Below, piece by piece: positions 24,949 through 40,467 of a stretch of DNA of 40,670 nt. Within the stretch, counting starts at the first letter, position 1. Each line of letters begins with the position of its first letter. The position numbers and the translations under genes are program-made. This DNA comes from Nitrospinae bacterium bin107 (GTDB lineage: Bacteria; UBA8248), in the NCBI GenBank assembly GCA_002238965.1, contig MPNJ01000028.1, forward strand, positions 1 to 40,670, written 5' to 3'. The notes beneath the pieces were generated by a model. That model did no database searches and was not told where the DNA came from. It saw nothing but the letters and a program-made list of their open reading frames with translations.

Positions 24949-24951
24949 GTC

Positions 24952-25977
24952 TTGTTGGAGAACCTGGCGGAAAAAAGAAGAGTGCTCATCGTGCTGGGCG
25001 TCTTCGTCGCTCTCGGAGTCATAACGCCGTTTCTCGACCTCTTCATGCAGAGTCTGGTGACGGAGATTCTGGTCTTCGGCATCCTCGCCATGAGCCTGGA
25101 CCTGCTGCTGGGGTTCACCGGGCTGGCCTCTCTGGGACACGCCGCCTATTTCGGCGTCGCCTCCTACACCACGGCCATCATCATGACGAAAGAAGACTGG
25201 ACGTGGACCTTCGCCGCCTTCCAGTGGGCGGACTCGCTGGGGCTGGGCCTTTTCTACATCTTCATATTCGCGTTGATCGTCGCCACGGCCTTCGCCGCGT
25301 TCTTCGGTTTTCTGGCCATCCGCGCGGTGGGCGTGTATTTCCTGATGATCACCCTCTCTCTCGCCATGGTCATCTGGGGTCTGGCTTACCGCTGGAGCGC
25401 CGTGACGGAAGGGGACAACGGCATCAACGTGCTGGGGAGACCTTCTCTGTTCGGCTTATCGCTGGAATCGGAAATGCCGTTCTTCTACTTCACGCTCGCG
25501 GTGTTCCTGATCTGCCTGGGCCTGATGTACATGTTCGTGAGAAGCCCTTTTGGAAAAACGCTGGTCGGCATCAGGGAGCGCGAGGAGCGCATGCAAATGC
25601 TCGGCTACAACATCTGGCTCCACAAATACCTCGCGTTCATCATCGCGGGCGTATTCAGCGGCGTGGCGGGCGTGATGTGGACGCTGTTCAACCTCTTCGT
25701 GAGTCCGCCGGACATCGAACTCATCACCTCGGCCGAGGCGCTCTTCATGGTGGCGCTGGGCGGACCCGCCACGTTGATCGGCCCGGTGATCGGATCGGCC
25801 ATCATCCGCTCGCTGCAGCAGTTCATCAGCATCTACGTGGAGCGCTGGCCGCTGATTCTGGGCGCCATCTACATCATCACCATCATGTTGGGACGCCTCT
25901 ACGGCGTCGAGGGAATACTCGGATTGTTCAGCAAGTTCCGCAAACCCGCCGCCCCGTCGGAAACCCCGGAGGGTTGA
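24952..25977 (+). CDS. LivM-type ABC transporter permease
   Basis: 341 residues, normal for LivM. The start is TTG at 24952 (a second TTG follows directly), with GGAAAGGG upstream and only three bases after the previous stop codon. Family marks: LAMSLDLLLGFTGLASLGHAAYFGV (about 43-67), TGDNGI-type loop (TEGDNGINVL), the ATPase-contact loop GIREREERMQMLGYN, and AEALFMVALGGPATLIGPV. About ten hydrophobic segments. Second channel half of the importer. Confidence 0.9.
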   Translation: MLENLAEKRRVLIVLGVFVALGVITPFLDLFMQSLVTEILVFGILAMSLDLLLGFTGLASLGHAAYFGVASYTTAIIMTKEDWTWTFAAFQWADSLGLGLFYIFIFALIVATAFAAFFGFLAIRAVGVYFLMITLSLAMVIWGLAYRWSAVTEGDNGINVLGRPSLFGLSLESEMPFFYFTLAVFLICLGLMYMFVRSPFGKTLVGIREREERMQMLGYNIWLHKYLAFIIAGVFSGVAGVMWTLFNLFVSPPDIELITSAEALFMVALGGPATLIGPVIGSAIIRSLQQFISIYVERWPLILGAIYIITIMLGRLYGVEGILGLFSKFRKPAAPSETPEG

Positions 25978-26030
25978 GGACGGCGCGGCACCGCGTCTCT
26001 GATTCGAGACGAAATGAGGGAGGAAAACAG

Positions 26031-27284
26031 ATGAAACGGAAATTTATCACCATCATCGCAGTGCTCGGCCTCGCCTTCTCAGTCAGCTTCGGCAGCGCCC
26101 AGGCGGCCGAGGTGCGCATCGGGTTCATCGCGCCGATGACGGGCATCTTCGCCCAGATCGGCAAGGACATGAGCAACGGCTTCAAGATGTACATGGCGCA
26201 CACGAAGAACAAGATGGGCCCACTGGACGTCAAGTTCATCCTCGAGGACTCGACCGGCAAGCCGGCCGTGAACGTGCGCAAGGCGCTCAAGCTCATCAAG
26301 CGCGACAAGGTGCACATGTTCATCGGCGGACTGCTGGCCAGCACCGGGTATGCGCTCGCTCCGGTGGCCAACCGCTTCAAGACGCCCTACATCTCGCCCG
26401 TGCCGGCTGCGGACGACCTCACCCAGCGCAAGCTCTTCAAGCACTTCCTGCGCAGCGGCTTCACGAGCAGCCAGAACAGCCATCCCCTCGGCGAGTGGGC
26501 CTACGACCAGGGCTACCGCAACGTGGTCACCATCGGCGCGGACTACGCTTTCGGCTACGAGACCGTGGGCGGCTTCCACAAGGCCTTCGAGGCGCGCGGC
26601 GGCAAGGTCGTCAAGAAGATCTGGGCGAAACTCGGCACCAAAGACTTCGGCCCCTATCTGCCGCAGATACCCAAGGACGCCGACGCCATCTTCACCCTGA
26701 TGGTCGGCCCCATGTCCCTGGCTTTCCCGAAGCAGTTCCGCGCCGCGGGCTTCAAGATGCCGATGCTCGGCGGCGTGACGAGCGCGGATGAGTTCATCCT
26801 GCCCAGCATGGGCGACGAGGCGCTCGGCTACGTGACGGCCGCGCAGTACAGCGCCGCCCTCGCGACGGACAAGAACAAGGCGTTCGTCAAGGAATACCAG
26901 CAGCGCTACGGGAAGATGGCCTCCTACTATTCGGAGACCTGCTACACCACGGGCCAGTGGGTGGACCTCGCACTCAAGAAAATCGGCTACAAGCCGGACA
27001 ACAAAGATGCGTTCCTCAAGGCGTTCAAGGCCATCCGCATCGACGCCATCAGAGGGCCGGTGTATCTGGACAAATACGGAAATCCGGTGCAGAACAGCTA
27101 CATCCGCAAGGTGACCCGCGTGAAGGGCGATCGCCTGGGTCTGGGCGTGAAGTCGAACTCGCTCTGGAACCTCGTGATCAAGACCTACCCGGCCGTGGGT
27201 CAGTTCTGGAAGTGGTCGGATAAGGATTTCCTGAAAGACCCTGTGTACAGCAAGAAGTTCCCGCCGTGCCCGCATTGTAAGTAA
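26031..27284 (+). CDS. ABC transporter periplasmic binding protein, LivK-like
   Basis: 417 residues; GGGAGGAAAACAG precedes ATG 26031. A cleavable Sec signal peptide (MKRKFITIIAVLGLAFSVSFG, then SAQA before AEVRIGF) is followed by a type I periplasmic-binding fold of the branched-chain-amino-acid (Peripla_BP_6) family: IGFIAPMTGIFAQIGKDMSNG at the start, PYISPVPAADDL, NVVTIGADYAFGYETVGGF. Longer than LivK (about 370) and shaped more like the binding proteins for aromatic or amide substrates, but the ligand cannot be named. It gives the importer its specificity. A longer frame reaching upstream is an accident of high GC. Confidence 0.9.
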   Translation: MKRKFITIIAVLGLAFSVSFGSAQAAEVRIGFIAPMTGIFAQIGKDMSNGFKMYMAHTKNKMGPLDVKFILEDSTGKPAVNVRKALKLIKRDKVHMFIGGLLASTGYALAPVANRFKTPYISPVPAADDLTQRKLFKHFLRSGFTSSQNSHPLGEWAYDQGYRNVVTIGADYAFGYETVGGFHKAFEARGGKVVKKIWAKLGTKDFGPYLPQIPKDADAIFTLMVGPMSLAFPKQFRAAGFKMPMLGGVTSADEFILPSMGDEALGYVTAAQYSAALATDKNKAFVKEYQQRYGKMASYYSETCYTTGQWVDLALKKIGYKPDNKDAFLKAFKAIRIDAIRGPVYLDKYGNPVQNSYIRKVTRVKGDRLGLGVKSNSLWNLVIKTYPAVGQFWKWSDKDFLKDPVYSKKFPPCPHCK

Positions 27285-27296
27285 GGGCGAATTATC

Positions 27297-27328
27297 CCGC
27301 CGTCCGGGTTTCACGGCCCGGGCGGCGG
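27297..27328 (+). terminator. Strong GC hairpin after the binding-protein gene
   Basis: Twelve-base arms (27297-27308 and 27317-27328) pair completely with one T-G wobble around an eight-base loop, 13 bases after the binding-protein stop and before the ATPase genes. There is no T-run, so it is more likely a partial terminator or an mRNA-stabilising hairpin that keeps binding protein more abundant than the ATPases, as seen in many importer operons. Confidence 0.5.
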
Positions 27329-27366
27329 ATTCGCGCCGGTAAACTTTTCGAAGGAGCAGTCACGTT

Positions 27367-28122
27367 TTGGCGAACGGGCAATCAGGGCTGGAGCTTGAGA
27401 ACGTCACCAAGCATTTCGGCGGCCTTCACGCCGTCGAGGACGTGAACCTGCGCCTGAACCTCGGCGAGCGTCGGGGAATCCTGGGGCCGAACGGAGCGGG
27501 CAAGACCACGCTGTTTCACCTGATAACGGGCGTGCTTCCGCTCACCTCGGGCCGCATTCGCCTTTTCGGACAGGACGTCTCGGGATGGCCTACCCACAAG
27601 CGCGTGGCCTTGGGCATGGCGCGCACCTTCCAGATCACCAGCCTTTTCCCCAAGCTCACCGTGCTCGAGAACGTTCTGCTCGCCGTGCAGGGCTTGCGGA
27701 AGATGAAAATGATGATGCTGAAACCGCTTTTCAAGTACAAGGACGTGTACGAAAAAGCCGAAAAACTGCTGAGTGACGTGAACTTCTGGCATTTGAGGGA
27801 TCAGGAGGTCCGCAACCTCTCCCATGGGGAGCAGCGCCAGCTCGAGATTGTCCTCGCCCTGGCAAGTGAGCCCAAGGTTTTGCTTCTCGACGAACCTTCC
27901 GCCGGCCTGGCCACGGGAGAATCCCACGAGATGGCCAATTTCCTGAAATCGCTCGACCCCGAAATCGCCATTCTCATCATCGAGCACGATCTGGACGTCA
28001 TATTCGGGGTCGTCTCCCACATCAGCGTTCTGCACTACGGCGAGGTTCTCGCCGAGGGGCCCAGCGACGACATCCGAAACGACCCCAAGGTGCAGGAAAT
28101 CTATCTCGGAAAGGCGGATTGA
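27367..28122 (+). CDS. LivG-type ABC transporter ATP-binding protein
   Basis: 251 residues from TTG 27367, set by AAGGAG ten bases upstream. Walker A GPNGAGKTT, Q-loop (ARTFQITSLFP), signature LSHGEQRQLE, Walker B VLLLDEPSAGL, switch His in IIEHDLDV. The EHDLDVIF and GEVLAEG segments are typical of LivG. One of two ATPases powering the importer at the inner membrane. The signature has SHGE instead of SGGE, as is common in LivG proteins. The LivF-type gene begins one base after its stop. Confidence 0.92.
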   Translation: MANGQSGLELENVTKHFGGLHAVEDVNLRLNLGERRGILGPNGAGKTTLFHLITGVLPLTSGRIRLFGQDVSGWPTHKRVALGMARTFQITSLFPKLTVLENVLLAVQGLRKMKMMMLKPLFKYKDVYEKAEKLLSDVNFWHLRDQEVRNLSHGEQRQLEIVLALASEPKVLLLDEPSAGLATGESHEMANFLKSLDPEIAILIIEHDLDVIFGVVSHISVLHYGEVLAEGPSDDIRNDPKVQEIYLGKAD

Positions 28123-28123
28123 C

Positions 28124-28834
28124 GTGTCCACCCTTCTGAGCGTGAACGACATCCATACCTACTACGGCGACTCCTACGTCCTTCAGGGCCTGAGCATCCA
28201 CGTCGACGAGGGGGAGACGCTGGGCATACTCGGAAGAAACGGCATGGGCAAGACGACGCTGATCAACTCGATCATGGGTTTCGTTCCGCCGAGACGAGGC
28301 GCCATTCATTTCCGGGGAGAGGACATCACCACCACGAACAGCTTCGACATCTCCAAAATGGGAATCGGGCTGTGCCCGCAGGGCAGGCGCGTGTTCCCGA
28401 CCCTCTCGGTGCGCGAAAACCTCCTGGTGGCCCAACAGGAGCACGACGTGGGCTACCGCTGGAATTTCAAGGAAGTCTACGAACTCTTCCCCCGTCTCGG
28501 GGAGCGCGCAGGTCAGCGGGCGGGTTCCCTCTCAGGCGGCGAGCAGCAGATGCTGGCCGTGGGCCGCGCCCTGATGACCAACCCGAGCTGCCTCATCATG
28601 GATGAACCCTCCGAAGGGCTCGCGCCCATGATCATCCAGGACATCGGAAACGCCATACAGTCGCTCAAGGCCGAAGGACTCGCCGTCGTACTCGTGGAGC
28701 AGAACGCCGCCTTCGCCGTAAAGACGGTGGACAGGGTTTGCGTCATCGCGAACGGAAAAGTCGTCTACGAATCTTCGCCGCAGGAATTGTGGGCGAATGA
28801 GGAAGTCAGGAAAACCCACCTGGGAATCGGTTGA
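28124..28834 (+). CDS. LivF-type ABC transporter ATP-binding protein
   Basis: 236 residues from GTG 28124. Walker A GRNGMGKTT, signature LSGGEQQMLA, Walker B CLIMDEPSEGLAP, switch region VLVEQNAAFA, and the LivF C-terminus WANEEVRKTHLGIG. Second ATPase and last gene of the importer operon (TGA-C-GTG junction with the previous gene). Its 3' end and the following 60 bases have diverged look-alikes at about 31400-31500 and 34480-34540, suggesting this gene's end was carried along in the tandem duplications downstream. Confidence 0.92.
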   Translation: MSTLLSVNDIHTYYGDSYVLQGLSIHVDEGETLGILGRNGMGKTTLINSIMGFVPPRRGAIHFRGEDITTTNSFDISKMGIGLCPQGRRVFPTLSVRENLLVAQQEHDVGYRWNFKEVYELFPRLGERAGQRAGSLSGGEQQMLAVGRALMTNPSCLIMDEPSEGLAPMIIQDIGNAIQSLKAEGLAVVLVEQNAAFAVKTVDRVCVIANGKVVYESSPQELWANEEVRKTHLGIG

Positions 28835-29054: not shown

Positions 29055-31343
29055 ATGATTTCCGTACTATTGGACCGCTATACAAACGCCGTTCTACGCT
29101 ATCGTTGGCCGGTTATCGCGATCGCCACGCTGATCATGCTGCTCACGGGTGTCGGCGCGCTCTTCATCGGCGTCACGAACGACTACCGCATCTTGTTCAG
29201 CGAAGAAAATCCACAGTACGCCGATTTCAAGGCGCTCGAAAACATTTTTTCCACATCCAACATGGCGTTCATCGCCATCGCTCCACGAGGGGGCTCGGTG
29301 TTCACCCGAGAAGCGCTCGCCGCTCTCGAGGAATTAACCGAAGCCGCGTGGCGAACACCCCATTCCAGACGGGTCGACTCACTTACGAACTATACCCATA
29401 GCCGGGCGAAGGGAGATGAGCTGATCGTCGAGCCGCTCGTCGATGATGCGCGCTCGCTGAGCGATGCCGATCTCGCGCGAATCAGGAAAATCGCGCTCGA
29501 GTCGCGCGATCTGCCCGGTCGTCTGGTCTCCCGGGAGGGGCATGTGGCCGGGCTGGCGGTCACTTTCGTCCTGCCCGACGACATGGACGCTGCGGTGGTC
29601 TCTATAAACGATTACCTGAACGCTATCTTGAAGAAAGCCGGGGCCAGATACCCGGAAATCGCCTACTACCTGAGCGGTGACGTGATCAGTAACCGCACCT
29701 TCTCCGTGGCGACTTACAATGATTTCGTCTACCTGGCTCCAATCGTGTTCATCATGATCGTTGTCATCAGCACACTTCTTTTGCGCTCGTTTCTCGGCAC
29801 GTTTTCCATCATCGTCGTGATCGGGTTCGTCATCTTCAACACGATGGGGATTGCGGGCTGGCTCGGCACGGTGTTCAGCCCCACAAATGCCGGCGTACCG
29901 ACCATTGTCATGGCGACATGCGTCGCCCATTCAATCCACATCATCACGACCACGCTGCTGGGCATGGACCATGGGTTGGACAAGGATGCAGCGATTGCCG
30001 AATCGCTTCGGAGCAACGCATGGCCGGTGTTCCTGACTTCGATCACGACCGCGATCGGATTCCTGAGCCTGAACTACTCGGATTCGCCTCCCGCCCGTAT
30101 TCTGGGAAATCTCGTGGCGCTCGGCGTGCTGTGGGCCTTCGTCTACTCGATGACCCTGCTGCCGGCCGTACTTTCGATTCTGCCGTTGCGCGCACGCCGA
30201 ATCCCCTCCGGCAAATCCCCTTTTTTCGTCCGATTCGGCGCTTTCGTGGTCAAGCGCCGGGCGTTCCTGCTCTGTTTCGTCGCCGTTCTGACGGCTGTCC
30301 TCATCACAGGCATTCCCCGCAACGAGTTGACCGACAGATGGGCGCACTATTTCGACGAGCGCTACCGGTTCCGCCGCGATTCGGATTTCATCTTTGATAA
30401 CCTGAACAGCATGAATTTCCTGGAATACGCGCTCAAGGCGGGGCGCGAAGGCGGCATCACCGAGCCTGAATACCTGAAAAAAGTCGAGGCCTTCGCCAAT
30501 TGGTACCGGGAACAGCCGGAAGTGAGCCACGTCCAGGCTTTTACGGACATCATGAAGCGCCTGAACAAGAACATGCACGGCGACGACCCGGCCTACTACA
30601 GGCTCCCAAATGATCCGAAGCTCGCCGCGCAATATCTTCTGCTATATGAGTTCTCGCTTCCCTTCGGCATGGACCTCAACGACCGCATCGACGTCGCCAA
30701 ATCCACGACGCGAATGAGCGTCATGGTTCGCAACCGATCCTCCAAGGATCAGCGCGAACTCGACGAGCGCGCCAAAGCCTGGCTCAACGCCAACATACCC
30801 GAATTCGCTTCCGAGGCATCCGGCATCACCATGATCTTCGCCCATCTATCGCTCAGAAACATCCACGGCATGCTGCGCGGCACGATCATCGCCATGCTGA
30901 TTATCTCTTTACTCCTGATCTGGGTTTTCAAAAGCGTTCGGCTGGGGCTCATCAGCCTCGTGCCCAACTTTCTCCCCGCCGCCATGACATTCGGACTGTG
31001 GGGCTATCTGGTCGGCCAGGTGGACTTTGCCGGCTCGTTGATGACCGCCATCGCGTTCGGAATCATCGTGGACGATACGATTCACTTCATGAGCCGATAT
31101 CAAAAAGCCCGCCGGATGGGCTTCCCCGCGCCTGGAGCCGTGCGCGCCGCCTTTCGGATCGTGGGCCAGGCGCTATGGACGACGACGGCGGTATTGTCAC
31201 TCAGCTTTCTGGTGTTCGCCACATCGGGGTTCCACGGCAGCAGGACGCTCGGCCTGATGGTGGCGATCACGCTCGTATTCGCGCTCCTGGCCGATTTCCT
31301 GCTCCTGCCGACTCTGCTGATGGCTCTCGACCGGAAGAAGTGA
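29055..31343 (+). CDS. RND/MMPL-family transporter, copy 1
   Basis: 762 residues; ATG start with weak GGAAATTCC upstream. Two similar halves, each with one membrane segment, a large periplasmic domain and five further segments, as in MMPL/HpnN-type exporters. The C-half has the proton-relay motif GIIVDDTIHFMSRY; in the N-half the matching position is His292 (VAHSIHI), where copy 3 has Asp. Family members export lipids, hopanoids or other hydrophobic compounds using the proton gradient. Conserved with copies 2 and 3: TNDYRILF, SRVDSLTNYTHSRA-type, ARIRKIAL, LNKNMHGDDPA. Unlike them it has no oxygenase gene directly upstream; a 220-base gap follows the ABC ATPase gene. Confidence 0.9.
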   Translation: MISVLLDRYTNAVLRYRWPVIAIATLIMLLTGVGALFIGVTNDYRILFSEENPQYADFKALENIFSTSNMAFIAIAPRGGSVFTREALAALEELTEAAWRTPHSRRVDSLTNYTHSRAKGDELIVEPLVDDARSLSDADLARIRKIALESRDLPGRLVSREGHVAGLAVTFVLPDDMDAAVVSINDYLNAILKKAGARYPEIAYYLSGDVISNRTFSVATYNDFVYLAPIVFIMIVVISTLLLRSFLGTFSIIVVIGFVIFNTMGIAGWLGTVFSPTNAGVPTIVMATCVAHSIHIITTTLLGMDHGLDKDAAIAESLRSNAWPVFLTSITTAIGFLSLNYSDSPPARILGNLVALGVLWAFVYSMTLLPAVLSILPLRARRIPSGKSPFFVRFGAFVVKRRAFLLCFVAVLTAVLITGIPRNELTDRWAHYFDERYRFRRDSDFIFDNLNSMNFLEYALKAGREGGITEPEYLKKVEAFANWYREQPEVSHVQAFTDIMKRLNKNMHGDDPAYYRLPNDPKLAAQYLLLYEFSLPFGMDLNDRIDVAKSTTRMSVMVRNRSSKDQRELDERAKAWLNANIPEFASEASGITMIFAHLSLRNIHGMLRGTIIAMLIISLLLIWVFKSVRLGLISLVPNFLPAAMTFGLWGYLVGQVDFAGSLMTAIAFGIIVDDTIHFMSRYQKARRMGFPAPGAVRAAFRIVGQALWTTTAVLSLSFLVFATSGFHGSRTLGLMVAITLVFALLADFLLLPTLLMALDRKK

Positions 31344-31719
31344 TGGGCCGGATCGCTTCACCCGTGAGGTAAAGGGCTCAAGAATATGAATGAATCCTCA
31401 GCGGAGAGATTGAGAGTGTACGGGGAAGCCGGAAAAATCCGCCCGGGAATCGGCTGAAATATCTCTTGCGCTGTGAATGGAATTGACAGTATATTCAAGA
31501 AACCATGAGGAAACCATAAAAGATACTGAAACAAATAGTTGCTGATGAAACTTTAAGAGTCAGATAGGATTCGAACGGCTTTTCGAAAGTATACTTACAG
31601 CATTGTTCCAGCGGGACTCAATGAGTAGACGCACATGACTTTCGAAGGCCGCATTCATTTTTCACCACGGTAGGGATTCGTGGAAACACGGACTGAACTT
31701 CCGGGGAAACCTTACGGCG
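31344..31719. other. Leader of duplicated module 1, with a decayed ABC-ATPase tail
   Basis: No intact gene. Bases 31405-31457 translate as ERLRVYGEAGKIRPGIG-stop, which aligns with the ABC ATPase end ELWANEEVRKTHLGIG-stop, and the following 40 bases resemble the sequence after that gene. From about 31520 the leader resembles the leader of module 2 (AAATAGTTGC, GACGGCTTTTC-type and GACTCAATGAG blocks). Bases 31344-31375 resemble the sequences after the other RND genes. Confidence 0.5.
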
Positions 31720-32078
31720 ATGCAAGTACCATCCTCCTACGTTGAAGGCTACGAGCAAAGGGCCCGTCCTCACGATCAGGAACTGGCGGACCTCTACATC
31801 GGGCATACCACCATCGGCGATCCCCTTCTGGACCCGATAATGGAGGAGTTATCTTCGATGCCCGCCTATGAACTGCACGCGTTTGTCGAGGCGGGCATCG
31901 AAGGGCATGACGGCGTTCTCCGGTATGCGCCGCAACCCCTTCGCGATTTTTGCATAGCAAGCAAATCGTCAAATCCCAGAATTTTTCGCAGCTTCTGCAG
32001 ATTTCGGTATACGACGAGGGTGGTATCAGCTACCGTTTGCCCGACCAAGTCAAAGCGTCGGAATCGAGCAAGTGGTAA
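31720..32078 (+). pseudogene. DUF2236 (MpaB-like) oxygenase gene with internal deletion
   Basis: Residues 1-66 from ATG 31720 (SSYVEGYEQRARPHDQELAD onward) match the N-terminus of the intact gene at 36933 closely. After PQPLRDF the sequence jumps to DNA matching the last 44 codons of that gene (from GCATAGCAAGCAAATCG to the TGGTAA end at 32078), but in another reading frame. About 280 codons, including the whole putative haem-binding core, are lost. The parental edges share short TTT-containing microhomology (GATTTCTT and GCTTTCTG), fitting slippage or end-joining. The open frame from 31720 runs on out of frame to 32127 and is not a real product. Confidence 0.85.
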
Positions 32079-32123
32079 GCGATGTCCGCATCCGCGCCCG
32101 ACCCGTGCCGAGGTGATACGCAC

Positions 32124-34403
32124 GTGAAACTGGACCGCTATATCGACGCCGTTTTGCGCCACCGGTGGCTGGTGGTCGCGCTGGCCGTGTTGATTCTGCT
32201 GATCACGGGGGCGGGTGGGCGCTTCATCAAGACCACGAACGACTACCGCATCATGTTCGGCAAAGACAACCCCCAGCTCGCCGCCTTCAGGGCGCTTGAG
32301 AAAACCTTCTCCACTTCCGACACCGCGCTCATCGCCGTCGCGCCCCGAAGGGGTTCGGTGTTCACCAAGGAGGCGCTCGGCGCGCTCGAGGAATTGACCC
32401 AAACCGCGTGGAAGACGCCGCATTCGAGCCGGGTCGATTCCCTCACGAACTACAACCACAGCCGGGCGGAGGGGGATGACCTGATCGTCGAGCCGCTCGT
32501 CGACGACGCGAGCGCGCTGAGCGACGCCGACCTTGCGCGAATCCGGAAAATCGCGCTGGGCGCCACTGAAATCGCCGGACGCCTCGTCTCCCGTGACGGA
32601 CGCGTGGGCGGGCTGGCGATCACTTTCATCCTGCCGGACGACCTCGACGCCGCGGTGATCGAGATAAGCGATTATCTGAACGCAGCTCTCAAGAAGGCCC
32701 GCGCGAAATACCCGAACATCTCCTTTCACCTGACCGGCGACGTCATCATGCACCGCGCCTTCGCCGACGTCACGAAAGAAGAGCTGGAAACGCTCATGCC
32801 GCTCGTGTTCCTCATGATCATCATCGCCACGGCGCTTCTTATGCGCTCGGTGCTGGGCACGCTGGCCATCGTCGTCTCCATCGTATTCATCCTCATAAAC
32901 ACGCTGGGGGTCGCAGGCTGGATCGGGTCGGTATTCAGCCCTACGAATTCGGGCGTGCCGATCATCATCATGGCTATTTCCGTCGCGAACTCGATTCACA
33001 TCGTCACGGCCACACTGCTGGGCATGGGAAACGGCCTCGACAAGAATGCGTCGATCGCGGCATCGCTCCGGAGCAACGCCTGGCCGGTGTTTCTGACTTC
33101 GCTCACGACGGCGATCGGTTTTTTAAGCCTGAACACGTCCGATTCACCGCCCTTTCACGTCCTGGGCAACCTCGTGGCGCTCGGCGTGCTGTTCTCCTTC
33201 GTCTACGCCATGACGCTGTTGCCGGCGCTGCTCTCGATTCTTCCGCTGCGCGCGCGCCGAATTTCGTCCGAGAAATCCTCCTTTTTCGATCGTTTCGGCA
33301 ACTTCGTCGTAGAACGCCGCGTGCTTCTGCTCACGTTCGTCGCGGTTCTGACGCTCGTCCTCATCAGCGGCATTCCCCGAAACGAACTGACCGAGAGATG
33401 GGCGCACTACTTCGACGAGCGCTATGAGTTCCGGCGCGACACGGATTTCGTATTCGACAACCTGACCGGCCTGGATTCGCTGGAATACTCGCTCAAGTCG
33501 GGGCGCGAAGGCGGCATCACCGACCCTGAATACCTCAAAAAAGTCGAGGCCTTCGCCGAATGGTGCCGGAAGCAGCCGAAGGTGAGCCACGTGCGGGCCT
33601 TCTCGGACATCATGAAGCGCCTGAACAAGAACATGCACGGAGACGACCCGGCTTTTTTCAAAATCCCGGAGGACCCCAAACTCGCCGCGCAATATCTGCT
33701 GCTTTACGAGTTTTCACTCCCCTTCGGCATGGACCTCAACAACCGCATCGATGTCTCTAAATCCACGACGCGCATGACCGTGGTGATCCGCAGCCTCTCC
33801 TCCAAGGACCAGCGCGATTTCGACGAGCATGCGCAAGCCTGGCTCCGCGCCAACATACCCGAATTCGCACAGGAAGCGTCAGGCATCACCATGGTCTTCG
33901 CTCACCTCACGCTCAGAAACATCCACAGCATGCTGCGCGGCACGATAATCGCCATGGCCCTCATTTCATTGATCTTGATCCTGGTCTTCAAAAACGTGCG
34001 GCTGGGCCTCATCAGCCTCGTGCCCAACTTCATTCCCGCCGCCATGACCTTCGGCCTGTGGGGCCATCTGGTCGGCCGCGTGGGTCTCGCAGGCTCCGTG
34101 ATGACAGCGATCGCATTCGGGATCATCGTGGACGACACGATTCACTTTTTGAGCAAGTATCTGAGACATCGCCGCGAGGGCCTCTCCGCGACTGAGGCCG
34201 TGCGCGCCGTCTTTCACACCGTGGGCCACGCGCTATGGACGACGACCGCGGTCTTGTCACTCGGTTTTCTGGTGTTCGCCTCATCGGGGTTCGAGGTCAG
34301 CTGGGCGCTCGGCCTGATGGTGGCGATCACGCTCGTCTTCGCCCTGCTGGCGGATTTTCTGCTTCTGCCGACACTGCTGATGCTTCTCGACCGGAAAGAG
34401 TAA
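32124..34403 (+). CDS. RND/MMPL-family transporter, copy 2
   Basis: 759 residues from GTG 32124, chosen because GAGGTGA lies nine bases upstream and copy 3 starts at the same point (VQLDRYIDAV against VKLDRYIDAV); ATG 32082 is an in-frame alternative adding 14 residues. Same two-half, twelve-segment layout as copy 1. The C-half relay motif is GIIVDDTIHFLSKY; the N-half site reads SVANSIHIV, with Asn at the position of copy 3's Asp289. Very similar to copies 1 and 3 throughout, including the periplasmic blocks SRVDSLTNYNHSRAEGDDLI and LNKNMHGDDPA. It follows the broken oxygenase gene by 45 bases, the same junction that joins the intact pair downstream. Confidence 0.9.
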   Translation: MKLDRYIDAVLRHRWLVVALAVLILLITGAGGRFIKTTNDYRIMFGKDNPQLAAFRALEKTFSTSDTALIAVAPRRGSVFTKEALGALEELTQTAWKTPHSSRVDSLTNYNHSRAEGDDLIVEPLVDDASALSDADLARIRKIALGATEIAGRLVSRDGRVGGLAITFILPDDLDAAVIEISDYLNAALKKARAKYPNISFHLTGDVIMHRAFADVTKEELETLMPLVFLMIIIATALLMRSVLGTLAIVVSIVFILINTLGVAGWIGSVFSPTNSGVPIIIMAISVANSIHIVTATLLGMGNGLDKNASIAASLRSNAWPVFLTSLTTAIGFLSLNTSDSPPFHVLGNLVALGVLFSFVYAMTLLPALLSILPLRARRISSEKSSFFDRFGNFVVERRVLLLTFVAVLTLVLISGIPRNELTERWAHYFDERYEFRRDTDFVFDNLTGLDSLEYSLKSGREGGITDPEYLKKVEAFAEWCRKQPKVSHVRAFSDIMKRLNKNMHGDDPAFFKIPEDPKLAAQYLLLYEFSLPFGMDLNNRIDVSKSTTRMTVVIRSLSSKDQRDFDEHAQAWLRANIPEFAQEASGITMVFAHLTLRNIHSMLRGTIIAMALISLILILVFKNVRLGLISLVPNFIPAAMTFGLWGHLVGRVGLAGSVMTAIAFGIIVDDTIHFLSKYLRHRREGLSATEAVRAVFHTVGHALWTTTAVLSLGFLVFASSGFEVSWALGLMVAITLVFALLADFLLLPTLLMLLDRKE

Positions 34404-34776
34404 TATAATGTATGTTCGTCTCATACATGGACAAAGGGGTTCGAGATCGTGGGGGAGTCTTCTCCACAACAACAGTAAATGAATCAGGAAGTGTAAAACT
34501 CATCCGGGAATCGGATGTAATATTTCTGGCATTAATATTAATTTTGAACATATTATATTCTGGACATACCAAAGAACACATAAGTAGGAGTGAAAAAAAT
34601 AGTTGCAGGCCAGCCAAATAGGCAACGAGGGGTCTTGACGGCTTTTCAGTAGTGTTGCTCATCGCTTCGTTCGAGCGTGACTCAATGAGCAGACGGTCAG
34701 GTCTTCCGCGAATGAATTCACTCTTCGTCTCACCGAAGATTCGCAGAAGCTCTGAATTGCCAATCGAGAGAACCCG
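34404..34776. other. Leader of duplicated module 2
   Basis: No gene. Bases 34485-34520 (AAAACTCATCCGGGAATCGG) resemble the ABC ATPase 3' end, frameshifted. CATCCG-5-CGGATG (34501-34517) forms a hairpin and ATTAATATTAAT (34531-34542) is a perfect palindrome in an AT-rich stretch. From about 34590 it aligns with the module 1 leader (AAATAGTTGC, GACGGCTTTTC, GACTCAATGAGCAGACG). Confidence 0.5.
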
Positions 34777-34944
34777 ATGCCCCTACGAGTACCATCAGCT
34801 TACGTCGAAGAATACGAGAAGCAAACACGTCCATACAATCCAGAACTGGCGCACAACTATATCCGCCACACCACCATGGGCCATACCGAACTGGACCCGG
34901 CGATGGAGGAAACTGTGAAGGAGCAAAAGAGGAGGAATCTCTAA
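34777..34944 (+). CDS. 55-residue head of a DUF2236 oxygenase, coupled to the next gene
   Basis: From ATG 34777 the frame reads MPLRVPSAYVEEYEKQTRPY and continues to a stop at 34942-34944. Residues 1-45 match the N-terminus of the intact oxygenase at 36933 (VPSAYVEEYE against IPSAYVEGYE, YIRHTTMGHTELDPAMEE against YIRHTTIGDPVLDPIMEE). It ends with EETVKEQKRRNL and a TAA whose last base begins the ATG of the full oxygenase (TAATG). It is either a truncated relic or a short leader peptide whose translation feeds the next gene; the GGAGGAAT ribosome-binding site of that gene lies inside it. No domain of its own. Confidence 0.5.
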   Translation: MPLRVPSAYVEEYEKQTRPYNPELAHNYIRHTTMGHTELDPAMEETVKEQKRRNL

Positions 34945-36110
34945 TGCAATGTCCGGCAGCGTATAAGGACAGCCTTTCCAGGTGTTCCGACGACATGAAG
35001 GATGCGGCCGAGAACTATATCGAGCACACGACGATCGGGGACCCTGAGCTCGATCCGATCATGGAGGAGCTCTCCTCGATACCGACCAATGATCTCCACC
35101 GGTTTATCGAGGCCGGCATCGAACAGCAGGACCGGGTCTTTCGCGCCGCGCCGCGGTGCCTGCGCGATTTCTTCGACAACCTCGAAGAACCCGCCTGGGT
35201 GGACCACAAAGCATTTACACCCGGGGTACGCGCGTTTCAGAACAATGTCGTCAAGGTATTCGCGGCCTTCGTGGCCGGCGTGCTGATCGACGGCTTCTCG
35301 ACCCGAATCTCCAAGTCGTTCGTTCAAACGGGCCGTATCTTCGACAACGGGGTCGCGCGGCTCCAGCAGAACAACCGCCAGCAGGTCGAGATATTCTGGC
35401 CCGGCGGACTCTTGCGCGAATCCGACGGCTGGAAACTATCGGTCCGGATCAGGTTCGTTCATGCCCGCGTGCGCTACCTGCTGGCCCGCTCGGGCGAATG
35501 GGATGTCGGGGTTCACGGCACACCGATCAGCGCCGCGCATCTGGGCTACTCGCTCGCGTGTTTCTCGGCCAGGACCCTGAAACATTCGACCACCCTGGGC
35601 GCCCGCTATACACGGGAGGAACGCGAGAGCTTCTGTGCGGTCTGGCGCTACGCCGGCTACCTGATGGGCATCCCGGAAAGCATCATGTATCAGGGCGAGC
35701 AGGACGCATTGAAGATGTACCGCGTCGGCATGGCCTGCGAACCGGAACCCGATGAGGACGCAATCGTCATGTCGAATGCCCTCATCAATTCAGCGCCCCT
35801 GGTCGCCGGCATCACGGATAAGATCGAACGGGCCGAACTCGTCCGGAACATCATCTATCCGGTGTCGCGGCTGCTGATAGGGAACACGATGGCCAACAAG
35901 CTCAATTTCCCGAAAAGCTCCAGGTTCAAGATGATGCGCGCGTTCCTCGAGTTCCGCTTCGACAACGCGTTCACGTTGTTCAAGGAGCGCATTTTCCGGA
36001 AGGGTGGATCCAACCTGATCACGGCGTTTGGCGCATCCCTCTACAGCAACGCCGGCACCAGCTACAAGCTGCCCGACCACGTTCATGCAGAACGATCCTC
36101 GGAGTGGTAG
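34944..36110 (+). CDS. DUF2236 (MpaB/Lcp-like) putative haem oxygenase, copy A
   Basis: 388 residues from ATG 34944 (GGAGGAAT upstream). Family marks: FVAGVLIDGFSTRISKSF helix, LQQNNRQQVEIFWPGGLL, the core motif VRIRFVHARVRYLL, GTPISAAHLGYSLACFS, and WRYAGYLMGIPESI. This matches the DUF2236/MpaB family, which includes the latex-clearing protein Lcp, a b-type haem dioxygenase cleaving polyisoprene, and the fungal protease MpaB. The His in FVHARVR is the conserved family His and a candidate haem ligand. No signal peptide, so cytoplasmic. Substrate unknown; a hydrophobic or isoprenoid compound handled together with the neighbouring RND pump is an inference. Downstream lies a broken RND gene, so this copy has lost its own transporter. 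Confidence 0.8.
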   Translation: MQCPAAYKDSLSRCSDDMKDAAENYIEHTTIGDPELDPIMEELSSIPTNDLHRFIEAGIEQQDRVFRAAPRCLRDFFDNLEEPAWVDHKAFTPGVRAFQNNVVKVFAAFVAGVLIDGFSTRISKSFVQTGRIFDNGVARLQQNNRQQVEIFWPGGLLRESDGWKLSVRIRFVHARVRYLLARSGEWDVGVHGTPISAAHLGYSLACFSARTLKHSTTLGARYTREERESFCAVWRYAGYLMGIPESIMYQGEQDALKMYRVGMACEPEPDEDAIVMSNALINSAPLVAGITDKIERAELVRNIIYPVSRLLIGNTMANKLNFPKSSRFKMMRAFLEFRFDNAFTLFKERIFRKGGSNLITAFGASLYSNAGTSYKLPDHVHAERSSEW

Positions 36111-36143
36111 TAGATTTTCCATCCAGGGCAGGCCGGGAGGAAA

Positions 36144-36584
36144 CTGAACAGCGCCCTGCATCGCGAGGTCGACCGGGTCACGCAGGGAGACGATTTAATC
36201 GTCGATCCGCTCGTTGATGACGCGAGCGCCCTGAGCAACGCCGATCTCGCGCGCATTCGGAAAATTGCGTTGAGCTCGGCGGATCTCGCCGGGCGTCTGG
36301 CCTCCCTTGACGGACGAGTGGCCGGACTCGCTATCAATTTCGTAAAGCCAGACAAGAAAAGCAATATGGTGGCCGAGGCCGTGCGCGCCGTCTTTCACAC
36401 CGTGGGCCATGCGCTATGGACCACGACTGCGGTTTTATCGCTGGGTTTTCTGGTTATCGCCTCATCGGGGTTCGAGGTCAGCTGGACACTCGGTCTCATG
36501 GTTTCGATCACGATCGTCTTTGGGCTCCTCACCGACTTCCTGCTTCTGCCACCCTTGCTGACGGCTCTCGCCCTGAAGGATTGA
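36144..36584 (+). pseudogene. RND/MMPL transporter remnant with two large deletions
   Basis: An open frame without a proper start matches two separated parts of the full RND genes: first GDDLIVDPLVDDASALSNAD through GRVAGLAINF (periplasmic domain 1, about residues 117-170), then directly VRAVFHTVGHALWTTTAVLS to the C-terminus (about 690-758). The N-terminal 115 or so residues and about 500 central residues are gone, including the relay motif. The second deletion is in frame (junction near KPDKKSNMVAE), so a 104-residue product from ATG 36270 is conceivable but would not be a transporter. The sequence after it resembles the 3' flanks of the other RND copies. Confidence 0.83.
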
Positions 36585-36932
36585 CGGGGCGCGCTCGTCC
36601 CGCCCGCGCGGCATTGGGCCCAAGAGCGCGAGCAAATCCTCGCCTGTAGAATTGCGGGTGAAAGGGGCTATCGCAAAAACCTATTCCTGAATCTTCTGCT
36701 GCATTACCTTGATGAAAAAAAATTAAACGTGTTACATTCAAAGCGTTGCGACAAGAGGGTTAAGAAATTAGCATAAAGCTATCGTTACCCAGTGATGTAG
36801 AGGTGGGGAAACCACGAGTCCATTCTGTGGACTGACGAGTTAACGAATCGACTATTATCGTGCCGGTCTCATGGCCCTTGATAGTCTGTTGAACTCGGAG
36901 TCCAGAGAATACTCCTTTGGGAGCATGGACTC
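36585..36932. other. Leader of module 3
   Basis: No gene. It begins with RND 3'-flank-like sequence (36585-36650). A candidate promoter lies at 36709-36738. AGTCCA-5-TGGACT (36817-36833) and GGAGT-9-ACTCC (36897-36915) are possible hairpins just before the oxygenase start. Apart from its start it does not resemble the leaders of modules 1 and 2. Confidence 0.5.
36709..36738 (+). promoter_or_regulatory. Candidate promoter of the intact oxygenase-transporter pair
   Basis: TTGATG (36709-36714), an 18-base A-rich spacer, then TACATT (36733-36738), four of six consensus bases each, in the only AT-rich stretch before the pair. Confidence 0.3.
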
Positions 36933-38105
36933 ATGGCAACTCTGGTAATCCCATCTGCCTACGTTGAAGGCTACGAAAATAAGGCGCGCCCTCACGATCA
37001 GGAACTGGCGGACCTCTACATCCGGCACACCACCATCGGCGATCCCGTTCTGGACCCGATCATGGAGGAGATATCCTCCCTCCCCACCTACGACCTGCAC
37101 GCGTTCATCGAGGCCGGCATCGAACAGCATGACGGCGTTCTGAGGGATGCGCCGCAACCCCTTCGCGATTTCTTCTGGAATTTCGAAGAGCCAGCCTGGC
37201 TTGATCACGAAGCCTTCCGTCCCGGGATTCGTTGTTTCAACGTCAACGTCGATCTCATGCTCGTCGCGTTCGTGACGGGTGTGCTGGTGGAGGGTTTCTC
37301 GACGCTCATCGCCAAGTCCTTCAACAAGACCGGGCGGACGGCGGCGACCCCCAGGCGCCTCATGCAGAACAACCGCCAGTTGATGGAGATATTCTACCCC
37401 GGCGGGCTGCTAAGGAACGGCGACGGCTGGAAGCTCTCCACGCGCGTCCGGTTCGTGCATGCGCGCATCAGAAACCTGCTGGCGAAATCAGGCGACTGGG
37501 ACTTCGAGGCCTGGGGCGCGCCGCTGAGCGCGGCGAACCTGGGGTTGGCCATCTCCATCTTCTCGATGCAACTGCTCAGATACTCGAAACTCGTGGGAAC
37601 GAGCTTCAGCATCGAGGAACAGGAGAGCGTACTCGCCGTCTGGCGCTACGCCGGCTATCTCATGGGGATACCCGAAACCATCCTCTACACAGACGGGGCG
37701 GACGCGGAGAGGAAACACGACATCGCCTATATGTGCGAACCCCCTCCGAGCGCGGATTCGGTCGACATGGCGAACGCGCTGATCAAGGCCATTGCGCCGG
37801 TTGCGGGCGTAACGGACCCGAAGGAACAGGAAGACTTGACGGATCTGGCCTATCGCCTTTCCACGGCGTTGATAGGGCAGGAACTCGCGGGTCAGTTTGG
37901 GTATCCGAAGCACTCCCGCCTCACCACGATGCTGACGCTTTACATTTTCCGGACGAAACAACGCCTCCTGCGCTTTCTGCATAGCAAACAAATCGTCAAG
38001 TCCCAGAATTTTTCGCAGCTTCTCAAGATTTCGGTGTACGACGAGGGTGGAATCAGCTACCGGATGCCCGACCGAGTCAAAGCGTCGGAATCAAGCAAGT
38101 GGTAA
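36933..38105 (+). CDS. DUF2236 (MpaB/Lcp-like) putative haem oxygenase, copy B
   Basis: 390 residues; GGGAG nine bases before ATG. Collinear with copy A over the whole length. Motifs: FVTGVLVEGFSTLIAKSF (113-130), NNRQLMEIFYPGGLL (146-160), core RVRFVHARIR (171-180), GAPLSAANLGLAISIFS and WRYAGYLMGIPETI (237-250), as in the DUF2236/MpaB and latex-clearing-protein superfamily. An N-terminal region of about 90 residues (TTIGDPVLDPIMEEISSLPT and PQPLRDFFWNFEEPAW) precedes the core and is kept in all copies, so it is probably functional. Downstream, 79 bases separate it from RND copy 3; this is the only module in which both partners are intact, so it is the reference for the system. No signal peptide. 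Confidence 0.82.
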   Translation: MATLVIPSAYVEGYENKARPHDQELADLYIRHTTIGDPVLDPIMEEISSLPTYDLHAFIEAGIEQHDGVLRDAPQPLRDFFWNFEEPAWLDHEAFRPGIRCFNVNVDLMLVAFVTGVLVEGFSTLIAKSFNKTGRTAATPRRLMQNNRQLMEIFYPGGLLRNGDGWKLSTRVRFVHARIRNLLAKSGDWDFEAWGAPLSAANLGLAISIFSMQLLRYSKLVGTSFSIEEQESVLAVWRYAGYLMGIPETILYTDGADAERKHDIAYMCEPPPSADSVDMANALIKAIAPVAGVTDPKEQEDLTDLAYRLSTALIGQELAGQFGYPKHSRLTTMLTLYIFRTKQRLLRFLHSKQIVKSQNFSQLLKISVYDEGGISYRMPDRVKASESSKW

Positions 38106-38184
38106 GCGATGTCCGTAATCAGATGCGCCCTGAAGGTTCAGCCCCTATCCACACCGTGCCCGTGACCAAGAGGCGATAACTATC

Positions 38185-40467
38185 GTGCAACTGGATCGCT
38201 ATATCGATGCCGTTATGCGTCATCGGTGGCTGGTAGTTGCGCTGGCCTTATCGATAATGATCATCGCAGGGGCGGGCGGGCGCTTCATCACCATTGCGAA
38301 CGATTACCGCATTCTGTTCAGTGAAGACAATCCTCATCTCCTCGCTTTCGACGCGCTGGAGAATACCTTTTCCTCATCCGACAACGCGCTTATCGCCATT
38401 GCGCCCAAAGGCGGTTCGGTTTTCACCAAGGAGGCGCTCGGCGTGCTCGAGGAGTTGAGCAAAGCCGCGTGGAAGACGCCGCATTCGAGCCGGGTCGACT
38501 CCCTCACGAACTATACCCACAGCCGCGCGGAGGGGGATGACCTGATCGTCGAGCCGCTCGTCGAAGACGCGGGTTCGCTTACAGAAACAGACGTCTCGAG
38601 AATCCGGAAGATCGCGCTGGGCGCCACCGAAATCGCCGGACGCCTCGTCTCCAATGATGGGCGCGTGGGCGGGCTGGCGATCACTTTCAATCTGCCCGAA
38701 AACCAGGACCTCGCGGTGCGCGAGATAACCGATTACCTGAACGTGGTTCTCCAGAAGGCGCACGCGAAACATCCGGACATTGCCTATTACATGACCGGCA
38801 CCGTCGTCGTAAACCGGTCTTTCCAGGATGCCCCACAGGCCGAAAACAAGGTGCTGTTGCCGATTGTGCTACTCGTCATCGTGAGTCTCACGATTATTCT
38901 CCTACGCTCGTTTCTCGGCACTTTGGCGATCATGACCGTTATCATTTTCCCCATCGTTACCGCAATGGGATTCGCCGGCTGGGTCGGTGCGGTATTCAGT
39001 CCCACCAACGCCGGCGTGCCCGTCATCATCATGGTGATAGCCATTGCGGATGCTGTCCACATCGTTTCGAGCACTCTTTTCGGCATGAGACGCGGTCTAG
39101 AAAAAGATGCCGCGATTGCGGAATCGATCCGCATCAACGCCTGGCCGGTGTTTCTCACCTCGCTCACGACGGCGATCGGTTTCCTGAGCCTGAACACCTC
39201 GGATTCGCCGCCCTTCCACGTCCTGGGCAATTGCGTGACGCTCGGCGTTTTGTGCGCTCTCGCCTACTCCCTGACGTTGCTGCCGGCGTTGCTATCGATT
39301 CTCCCGTTGCGCGCGCCTCGCCGCCGCACGAAGGGGTTAGACTTGTTCGAGCGCTTTGCCGACTTCGTCATCTCCTGGCGCAAATTTCTGCTCGTGTTCT
39401 TCTCTCTGGCGGTGATTCTTCTGCTGACGGGTATCCCCCGCATCGAGCTGGGCGATGATCTCACAAAATTTTTCGACGAGCGCTACCGTGTCCGCCGCGA
39501 TACGGATTACATCTCCCAACATCTGACCGGCTTCGACAAGCTCGAATATTCCCTGAAAGCCGGGAGAGAGGGCGGTATTACCGATCCCGTATATCTCCGC
39601 AAGGTCGAGGCCTTCGCCGAATGGTACCGGAAGCAGCCGAAAGTGACCCACGTCCAGGCATTCCCGAACGTTCTGAAACGCCTCAACAAGAACATGCACG
39701 GCGACGACCCGGCCTTCTACAGGATCCCCGACGATCCGAAGCTCGCCGCGCAATATCTGCTGCTTTATGAGTTTTCCCTCCCCTTCGGCATGGACCTCAA
39801 CAACCGCATCGATGTCGGGAAAACCGCAACACGAATGACTGTAACGGTCCAGGGCGTCTCGGCCCGAGGCTTACGTGCGCTCGATATGCGCGCGCAGACC
39901 TGGCTGCGCGCCAACATACCCGAATTCGCAGCCGAAGCATCGGGTATCAGCATGATTTTCGCTCACCTCACACAACGAAACATGAAAAGCATGCTGCGCG
40001 GAACGTTCATCGGCATGACCCTCATTTCGATCATATTGATCCTGGTTTTCAAAAACGTGCGCCTGGGCCTCATCAGCCTCGTGCCCAACTTCATTCCCGC
40101 CGCCATGACTTTCGGTCTGTGGGGTTATCTAGTGAGCCGCGTGAGTCTAGCAGCCTCCGTGATGACCATAATCGCTTTCGGCATTATCGTGGACGACACG
40201 ATTCATTTTCTGAGCAAATACCTGAAGAGCCGCCGCGAGGGCCTTACCGCGCCTGAGGCCGTAGGCACCGTCTTTCGCACCGTAGGACATGCGCTATGGA
40301 CAACGACCGTGGTTTTGTCGGCGGGCTTCCTGATGTTCACGTTATCGGGCTACGAGGGGAGTTGGACACTCGGTCTCATGGTTTCGATCACGATCATCTT
40401 TGGGCTCCTCACCGACTTCCTGTTGCTGCCGACCCTGCTGATGGCTCTCGACCGGAAGAAACTATGA
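38185..40467 (+). CDS. RND/MMPL-family transporter, copy 3
   Basis: 760 residues from GTG 38185 (AAGAGG ten bases upstream). Two-half MMPL architecture: membrane segment 1 at about 15-33, periplasmic domain 1 to about 222, five segments to about 375, segment at about 400-417, periplasmic domain 2 to about 600, five final segments. It alone keeps acidic residues at both relay sites: Asp289 (AIADAVH) in the N-half and Asp670-Asp671 (GIIVDDTIHF) in the C-half, so it is the copy most likely to be a canonical proton-driven exporter. It pairs with the intact oxygenase directly upstream. Substrate unknown; lipids and hopanoid-like molecules are typical of the family. Confidence 0.9.
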   Translation: MQLDRYIDAVMRHRWLVVALALSIMIIAGAGGRFITIANDYRILFSEDNPHLLAFDALENTFSSSDNALIAIAPKGGSVFTKEALGVLEELSKAAWKTPHSSRVDSLTNYTHSRAEGDDLIVEPLVEDAGSLTETDVSRIRKIALGATEIAGRLVSNDGRVGGLAITFNLPENQDLAVREITDYLNVVLQKAHAKHPDIAYYMTGTVVVNRSFQDAPQAENKVLLPIVLLVIVSLTIILLRSFLGTLAIMTVIIFPIVTAMGFAGWVGAVFSPTNAGVPVIIMVIAIADAVHIVSSTLFGMRRGLEKDAAIAESIRINAWPVFLTSLTTAIGFLSLNTSDSPPFHVLGNCVTLGVLCALAYSLTLLPALLSILPLRAPRRRTKGLDLFERFADFVISWRKFLLVFFSLAVILLLTGIPRIELGDDLTKFFDERYRVRRDTDYISQHLTGFDKLEYSLKAGREGGITDPVYLRKVEAFAEWYRKQPKVTHVQAFPNVLKRLNKNMHGDDPAFYRIPDDPKLAAQYLLLYEFSLPFGMDLNNRIDVGKTATRMTVTVQGVSARGLRALDMRAQTWLRANIPEFAAEASGISMIFAHLTQRNMKSMLRGTFIGMTLISIILILVFKNVRLGLISLVPNFIPAAMTFGLWGYLVSRVSLAASVMTIIAFGIIVDDTIHFLSKYLKSRREGLTAPEAVGTVFRTVGHALWTTTVVLSAGFLMFTLSGYEGSWTLGLMVSITIIFGLLTDFLLLPTLLMALDRKKL

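Follow-up and report, generated by a model that had tools for sequence, protein, structure and literature searches.

The stretch analyzed here (the window) is the whole 40,670-nucleotide contig MPNJ01000028.1 (C11) of Nitrospinae bacterium bin107, whose genome (G000) spans 4.37 Mb and is 95.9% complete. Positions 29055 to 40467 hold an array of genes for DUF2236 oxygenases and RND/MMPL exporters, all on the plus strand. We give about an even chance to the interpretation that this array is a worn, local version of a module for oxidizing and exporting an isoprenoid lipid, common to largely sponge-associated bacteria. In the proposed scheme, the cell would make a C30 isoprenoid (either squalene or a polyene derived from it), which the DUF2236 protein, a putative cytoplasmic heme oxygenase with the fold of the rubber oxygenase Lcp (latex clearing protein), would oxidize. 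The adjacent RND/MMPL pump would lift the oxidized product from the inner membrane, and a LolA-like protein of the periplasm, together with a beta-barrel-like protein, would take it to the outer membrane or outside the cell. Genes for the latter two proteins lie elsewhere in the window's genome and in the same operon in many other genomes. The genomic context supports isoprenoid oxidation and export; that the substrate lies at the level of squalene is what we hypothesize. An earlier, sequence-only reading of the window had proposed coupled oxidation and export. This proposal is strengthened by the recurrence of the gene pair in nine phyla by record title, the correlated divergence of the two proteins, and the recurring isoprenoid genes; the sequence-only interpretation as a whole is partly supported. 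The same reading knew of no described system with a DUF2236-MMPL pairing. Our literature searches, judged by titles and the beginnings of abstracts and with most subscription papers outside their scope, likewise returned none, and the terms squalene, MMPL, and RND are absent from the main text of an Entotheonella paper (PMC12858407).

To collect relatives, genome contigs were scanned with an alignment of seven oxygenase sequences; of 174 confirmed loci, 80 were used. An RND frame lay directly behind the oxygenase on the same strand in 45 of the 80 loci (gaps of -7 to 167 bases), and both genes were full length in 40. By record title, the 45 paired loci represent nine phyla (Pseudomonadota, Nitrospirota, Nitrospinota, Acidobacteriota, Binatota, Myxococcota, Gemmatimonadota, Verrucomicrobiota, and Latescibacterota) and the 40 full-length pairs seven; the two Myxococcota loci bear Deltaproteobacteria titles and may belong to Binatota, in which case the numbers would fall to eight and six. 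The arrangement first noticed in the window thus recurs outside close relatives. Genes in the loci were called with a composition-scored caller, by which broken genes are split or missed. In further loci, tblastn showed the RND gene to be broken, cut off, or separated (L053, L100, L103, L104, L114, and L119) or to lie on the opposite strand (L094). Five loci (L047, L075, L077, L085, and L088) end shortly after the oxygenase, and pairing is not assessable there. The partners also diverged together. Across 41 pairs (40 of the 45 plus the window's OxB-M3, with the short-frame L052, L092, L105, L110, and L121 excluded), oxygenase distances correlated with RND distances (r = 0.86; 0 of 5000 permutations as high [by a Mantel test]). 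The correlation was also found when only between-phyla comparisons were taken (r = 0.66 to 0.71). Coevolution of the partners, which the sequence-only reading had raised, is in line with this distance correlation, and discordant divergence was not seen.

The pair often belongs to a longer gene string. A LolA-like protein was encoded in the flanks of 37 of the 80 loci (PF17131 was matched by 37/37) and a barrel-like protein in the flanks of 30, with representatives of the latter matching only Porin_4 or DUF1302, weakly and below the cutoff. RND and LolA-like genes adjoined directly at 28 junctions, 21 of which showed a 4-base overlap. Two proteins of the LolA-like kind and two of the barrel-like kind have signal-like hydrophobic N termini. 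In locus L027, from a genome of another family (G129), the oxygenase, RND, LolA-like, and barrel-like genes stand in a row; the oxygenase of this otherwise complete four-gene string (L027:14609-15820) contains an in-frame TGA. In the window's own genome, contig C32 carries an MMPL gene, a TPR protein gene, and a string of genes for a flavin adenine dinucleotide (FAD) enzyme, a LolA-like protein, and a barrel-like protein. This LolA-like protein shares 75% identity with one that neighbors a Binatia pair; for the barrel-like protein, identity to one from a Deltaproteobacteria-titled record is 63%.

Ordinary accumulation would offer a different account of such strings: a neutral or selfish hitchhiking gene set, leaving a decaying array with no coherent function. 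The three decayed copies in the window would fit this account, as would the in-frame stop in the G129 oxygenase, the broken RND genes in L053, L105, and L119, and the short RND frames in L052 and L110. However, 40 of the 80 loci, from seven phyla by title, hold full-length co-diverging pairs, the RND and LolA-like genes overlap, and the heme-pocket residues are invariant in 46 of 46 sequences. We therefore consider accumulation without function very improbable.

Isoprenoid genes recurred around the pair, with at least one in the flanks of 36 of the 80 loci. Squalene/phytoene synthase was found in 24 loci (24/24 confirmed by Pfam), IspH in 12 (12/12), DXS in 8 (8/8), 3-hydroxy-3-methylglutaryl coenzyme A reductase with a kinase domain in 8 (8/8; mevalonate kinase in the one tested), and a polyprenyl (farnesyl diphosphate-type) synthase in 6 (6/6). 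FAD amine-oxidase type enzymes formed two groups of 6 and 5 (Pfam, 11/11), and the one tested was HpnE-like. About 0.5 synthase-bearing loci would be expected by chance versus 24 observed, a figure that assumes 1.7 synthase genes per 4 Mb and is to be read with the 24 loci not being independent. These 24 loci cover Opitutia, Binatia, Alpha- and Gammaproteobacteria, and Acidobacteriota. Contig C21 of the window's genome carries a 719-codon open reading frame (L127:12405-14561) that combines a NUDIX domain with two squalene/phytoene synthase domains, adjoined by an amine-oxidase-type enzyme. All seven genomes of the window's genus that were searched have an open frame with two synthase matches, 719 or 724 codons long.

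The nature of these neighbors bears on catabolism or detoxification, in which the oxygenase would attack a hydrophobic sponge compound (a terpene or sterol) and the pump would expel the compound or its products. Many loci are sponge associated, an ABC importer stands directly upstream of the array, and apparent acyl-coenzyme A dehydrogenases and a coenzyme A ligase are encoded further upstream in the window; Lcp is itself a degradative enzyme in the part of its description consulted (PMC5522427). On the other hand, the isoprenoid genes that recur beside the pair in several lineages are biosynthetic (degradation genes were not systematically counted), OxA and OxB lack a hydrophobic N terminus, in contrast to the extracellular Lcp, and among the loci fetched, the importer adjoins the pair in the window's genus only. 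Catabolism thus seems an unlikely role.

The oxygenases belong to PF09995 (MPAB_Lcp_cat, DUF2236), with scores above the cutoff (OxA, 62.7 bits; OxB, 60.4 bits; cutoff, 23), a predicted Lcp fold, and a proximal His. The predicted structure of OxB (predicted local distance difference test [pLDDT] score, 89) aligned with Lcp (5o1m) over 338 residues (Z = 30.1; 3.5 Å; 17% identity), and a sequence profile reached Lcp at 3e-13. The second-best fold match was 8s1j (Z = 19.4; 261 residues), which is named a t-anethole oxygenase, so the fold is not confined to rubber. His176, Arg142, and Asn146 were present in 46 of 46 sequences and Gln145 in 45. In an alignment read by eye, His176 and Arg142 correspond to Lcp His198 and Arg164. 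Lcp Lys167-Thr168 is replaced by Gln-Asn (Lys to Gln in 45/46 and Thr to Asn in 46/46), and Ile or Val stands at the position of the Lcp base Glu148, where the alignment is uncertain. As described in the consulted part of the Lcp literature, the Lys is an unusual ligand, Lys167 is conserved in only 59% of Lcps, and Lcp is an extracellular, degradative enzyme (PMC5522427). Because neither OxA nor OxB has a hydrophobic N terminus (by hydropathy only), both are likely cytoplasmic, unlike Lcp. With the active-site set only partly kept and the export feature absent, the array's oxygenase would fall outside Lcp proper, as far as its sequence tells.

Related oxygenases also occur in other settings. 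In the Nitrospirota set, G714 carries four oxygenase genes with 42 to 44% identity to OxB (G714:C1:1552087-1567245 and 2874575-2875738), two of them about 8 bases apart. Genus-mates of the window carry a second oxygenase subfamily with 37 to 39% identity to OxB (L031:12064-13266 and L036:4527-5729), in a gene string that is common to both loci and has no MMPL neighbor.

The RND proteins of the array matched both MMPL and sterol-sensing-domain models, and M1, M2, and M3 scored 96 to 125 bits against PF03176 (MMPL; cutoff, 20.5). The predicted structure of M3 (pLDDT, 80) aligned with MmpL4 (9syj) at a Z score of 43.1, within hits to MmpL4/5 at 42 to 43. AcrB-type pumps reached up to 42, mostly with a worse root mean square deviation, followed by MmpL3 (41) and a yeast NPC1 relative (40.5). 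M3 is thereby confirmed as an RND pump, although lipid and drug pumps are not told apart by the fold search. M1 to M3 fell far short of two named exporters, scoring 79 to 101 bits against the model of the hopanoid transporter HpnN (TIGR03480; cutoff, 751.85) and 19 to 29 bits against the NCBIfam equivalog of the sterol transporter BstA (cutoff, 1400).

Synthases, cyclases, and epoxidases were searched for in 59 oxygenase-bearing genomes, selected from those at hand. Of these, 29 had a strong triterpene cyclase match, of hopene-cyclase strength in 18 and of oxidosqualene-cyclase strength in 24, some having both; the two classes were split by bit score, not by tree. The window's genome had no PF13243 match and therefore neither a squalene-hopene cyclase nor a lanosterol synthase by this measure. 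Since a strong cyclase match was present in only 29 of the 59 genomes and in none of the contigs of the window's genome, the oxygenase appears not to be tied to cyclized products, and a linear C30 isoprenoid would be the simplest common substrate. A strong squalene epoxidase match was found in 24 genomes and lay within the same open frame as the cyclase in 21. These joint frames of 1132 to 1484 codons (21 of the 24 genomes with an oxidosqualene-cyclase match, two genus-mates of the window included; for example, G149:C16 [L168], G003:C31 [L151], and G002:C23 [L152]) are apparent fusions. We had also considered the oxygenase as a missing squalene epoxidase, because squalene epoxidase is not among the enriched steroid genes listed in the consulted part of an Ircinia symbiont study (PMC9531527). 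This candidate was rejected for the cyclase-bearing genomes, as 23 of the 24 have an epoxidase match of at least 74 bits.

The same searches weakened the idea of a sterol module, in which the oxygenase would modify a sterol and the RND protein would move sterols within the steroid gene sets of sponge symbionts. Horizontally transferred steroid clusters have been published for Ircinia symbionts (PMC9531527, as far as the text consulted goes), the RND proteins match a sterol-sensing-domain model, and 24 of the 59 genomes have the match of oxidosqualene-cyclase strength. Yet 30 of the 59, the window's genome among them, lack a strong cyclase match, and the epoxidases just described leave no gap for the oxygenase to fill where cyclases occur. 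Furthermore, 38 cyclase or epoxidase loci in other genomes had no oxygenase or RND relative nearby (within about 1.5 kb; CYP51 and ERG24 were not searched for). We regard a dedicated sterol function as improbable, and the export of an oxidized, uncyclized isoprenoid as the better fit.

The distribution of the module suggests that it has spread between phyla by horizontal transfer, because the oxygenase tree mixes phyla, cross-phylum identities are high, and the module is rare within the same phyla. On well-supported branches of the oxygenase tree (46 chosen sequences), Pseudomonadota, Nitrospirota, and Nitrospinota each appear in at least three places and Acidobacteriota in two; phyla are less mixed in the RND tree (31 sequences; quick method). 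Cross-phylum identity reached up to 77% in both proteins with the doubtful titles merged. Close oxygenase members (E < 1e-60) were rare and clumped. In the family of a Silicimonas metagenome-assembled genome (MAG), 6 of 345 genomes had one, seed included. The Nitrospirota set gave 9 of 345, and 7 of these are genomes of loci already among the relatives. The counts were 1 of 369 in the gammaproteobacterial set (the seed itself) and 14 of 396 in the Acidobacteriota set. A sample of 128 genomes outside the window's family contained 2. Within that family, a match was present in 6 of 6 genus-mates (in G002, the close copy appears only as contig-end fragments) and in 0 of 11 genomes of other genera. 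Misbinned contigs could mimic transfer, though some loci lie on long contigs (L048, 2.35 Mb; L062, 4.2 Mb; L079, 359 kb). Median identities, which are higher between phyla (61% for the oxygenase and 65% for RND) than within them (55% and 62%), were withdrawn as evidence of transfer: the difference stems from divergent copies within Pseudomonadota (23 of 41 rows), and with this phylum removed, the medians within phyla rise to 86% and 90%. Transfer is still indicated by the oxygenase tree and by the operon that the phyla share.

By their naming, 49 of the 80 loci, genus-mates included, come from what we take to be sponge bins (22 RHO/IRC/COS/APA, 15 SB06xx, 8 p16x, and 4 CO36xxx). The prefixes SB06, CO36, RHO1, COS1, and IRC1 were absent from the main text of the sponge papers checked, so these origins rest on naming style. 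One title says sponge, and six loci are of unassigned habitat. In the consulted parts of two sponge studies, the jk18x bin style of 19 of the 80 titles is used for Ircinia sponge MAGs (PMC9531527), and 277c and 287ce, found in 5 titles, are names of Petrosia specimens (PMC8941161). A restriction of the module to sponges is likely. The boldest form of our proposal is a horizontally shared trait of sponge microbiomes, in which an intracellular Lcp-fold heme oxygenase with a distal pocket altered to Gln-Asn would oxidize squalene or a C30 polyene and an RND-LolA-barrel route would deliver the product to the cell surface or to the host. This version is tentative, and we hold it to be possible but doubtful.

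Several observations weigh against an isoprenoid oxidation and export module. Among the clusters tested, 44 of the 80 loci have no isoprenoid gene in their flanks (some flanks end with the contig), and the window itself has none. At the genome level, squalene/phytoene synthase was present in 59 of 59 oxygenase-bearing genomes versus 7 of 14 controls, which discriminates little, as the synthase is common in controls and the family also makes phytoene. In the 24 genomes with an oxidosqualene-cyclase-strength match, a nearby squalene synthase could serve sterols instead. The MMPL partner is not universal: it is missing next to the oxygenase in 12 of 15 Acidobacteriota loci, and 10 of these 12 have an adjoining AcrB-type pump instead. 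Only 25 of the 80 loci have a documented sponge origin, the genus-mates not among them. Finally, we know of no biochemistry for any member of the subfamily of the window's oxygenases. As for the AcrB-type pumps, they adjoin the oxygenase in L080 to L084, L086, L087, L089, L091, and L093 (Acidobacteriota) and in L077 (Bacteroidota); 11 of 11 match ACR_tran, and HlyD-type fusion proteins occur in five of these loci.

The array in the window runs in the order M1, ox-psi1, M2, ox-psi2, OxA, RND-psi, OxB, M3. It opens with the exporter M1 (29055 to 31343; 762 amino acids [aa]; 92% identical to the ortholog in the genus-mate locus L045), followed by ox-psi1 (31711 to 32075), a decayed DUF2236 gene that retains OxB residues 1 to 80 and 347 to 390. 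It has an internal deletion of about 266 codons and a frame change, and it occupies the slot of an intact oxygenase in genus-mates. The second exporter, M2 (32082 to 34403), has 773 aa as called, with homology from 32124. Behind it lie ox-psi2 (34783 to 34911), a decayed DUF2236 N-terminal fragment of 43 codons, and the intact oxygenase OxA (34944 to 36110; 388 aa), which belongs to a clade other than that of OxB. The decayed RND-psi (36162 to 36584) consists of two noncontiguous pieces corresponding to about residues 105 to 194 and 692 to 754 of intact proteins. The array closes with the intact oxygenase OxB (36933 to 38105; 390 aa; Lcp fold; 87 to 91% identical to the oxygenase of genus-mates) and the exporter M3 (38185 to 40467; 760 aa; RND fold; 65% identical to M1 and 70% to M2). 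OxA and OxB share 50% identity and the RND proteins 65 to 73% among themselves. Pfam scores and tblastn confirm the inventory of the sequence-only reading (three full RND genes, two full DUF2236 genes, and three decayed copies), the decayed copies being two oxygenase remnants and one RND remnant. Its oxygenase-then-transporter order needs a correction at the start: the array begins with an RND gene, as tblastn found no oxygenase-like sequence upstream of M1. The shared junction it had pointed out is real: the motif TGGTAAGCGATGTCCG is present at two positions only, 32073 and 38100, ahead of M2 and M3 (0 in 100 shuffles), and direct repeats in the array agree with the register of the copies. 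The rest of the genome has no further PF09995 match. Directly upstream of the array, a branched-chain-amino-acid-type ABC importer (23851 to 28834, plus strand; two permeases, a binding protein, and two ATPases) adjoins M1, as it also does in genus-mates. At the other end of the window, a long repetitive frame with recurring TYTVTVTR (2 to 2050, minus strand) runs off the contig start and looks like repeated extracellular-type domains.

Genus-mates indicate how the array may have arisen. In L043, L045, and L046 (genomes G004, G003, and G005), M1, a single oxygenase, and M2 follow the same ABC importer, and G003 has a second oxygenase copy at a separate locus (L044). The DNA of ox-psi1 is 84 to 91% identical to OxB and the genus oxygenases, with which OxB clusters in the oxygenase tree (support, 100/100). 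OxA instead clusters (99/95) with oxygenases of Nitrospira bin75, an alphaproteobacterial MAG, and a Latescibacterota MAG. Because it lies outside the clade of OxB, OxA was probably gained from outside, separately from OxB. M1, M2, and M3 form one clade with those of the genus-mates in the RND tree (SH-like approximate likelihood ratio test, 97), and the RND copies therefore appear to be paralogs of the genus. The tree placements are best read as a mixture of duplication, decay, and acquisition. Tandem duplication as the whole origin was rejected for OxA by its clade and retained for the RND genes. The repeated duplication and loss suggested by the sequence-only reading thus fits the RND paralogs and the decayed copies, but OxA and OxB are not each other's tandem duplicates.

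If correct, the sponge-trait form of the module would add a new DUF2236 activity and a lipid common to sponge bacteria of many phyla. To our knowledge, few DUF2236 activities beyond rubber cleavage are known. The function of the family can now be tested, since its genomic partner is consistent, its compartment has been predicted, and a class of candidate substrates can be named. That many largely sponge-dwelling phyla have one lipid module in common would suggest a lipid that matters in this habitat, beside the published steroid clusters, and the module could bear on which partner makes sponge isoprenoids.

The module resembles several known systems in part. The array's oxygenase shares the fold, the proximal His, and the distal Arg with Lcp but differs in its Gln-Asn pair, in Ile or Val at the Glu148 position, in having no hydrophobic N terminus, and in standing in an operon with an exporter and isoprenoid genes. 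The t-anethole oxygenase (8s1j) is alike in fold, with 8% identity over the aligned part and another substrate. As in hopanoid (hpn) clusters, there is an RND exporter, and squalene-type synthesis genes lie near the pair in other genomes; however, the HpnN score is far below the cutoff, and the window's genome has no cyclase match. The steroid clusters of Ircinia symbionts likewise consist of genes linked to isoprenoids, for which horizontal transfer across many sponge-symbiont phyla is reported, but in the text consulted their core genes are ERG24, CYP51, and lanosterol synthase (PMC9531527), and the terms MMPL, efflux, oxygenase, and LolA are absent from the main text of that paper. BstABC differs in that the window module includes an oxygenase and its BstA score is below the cutoff, and the likeness of the LolA-like and barrel-like proteins is one of gene set. 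Even so, the consulted part of the BstABC literature describes a comparable layout, in which an RND protein, a periplasmic partner, and an outer-membrane-associated partner are encoded with lipid biosynthesis genes (PMC10942540).

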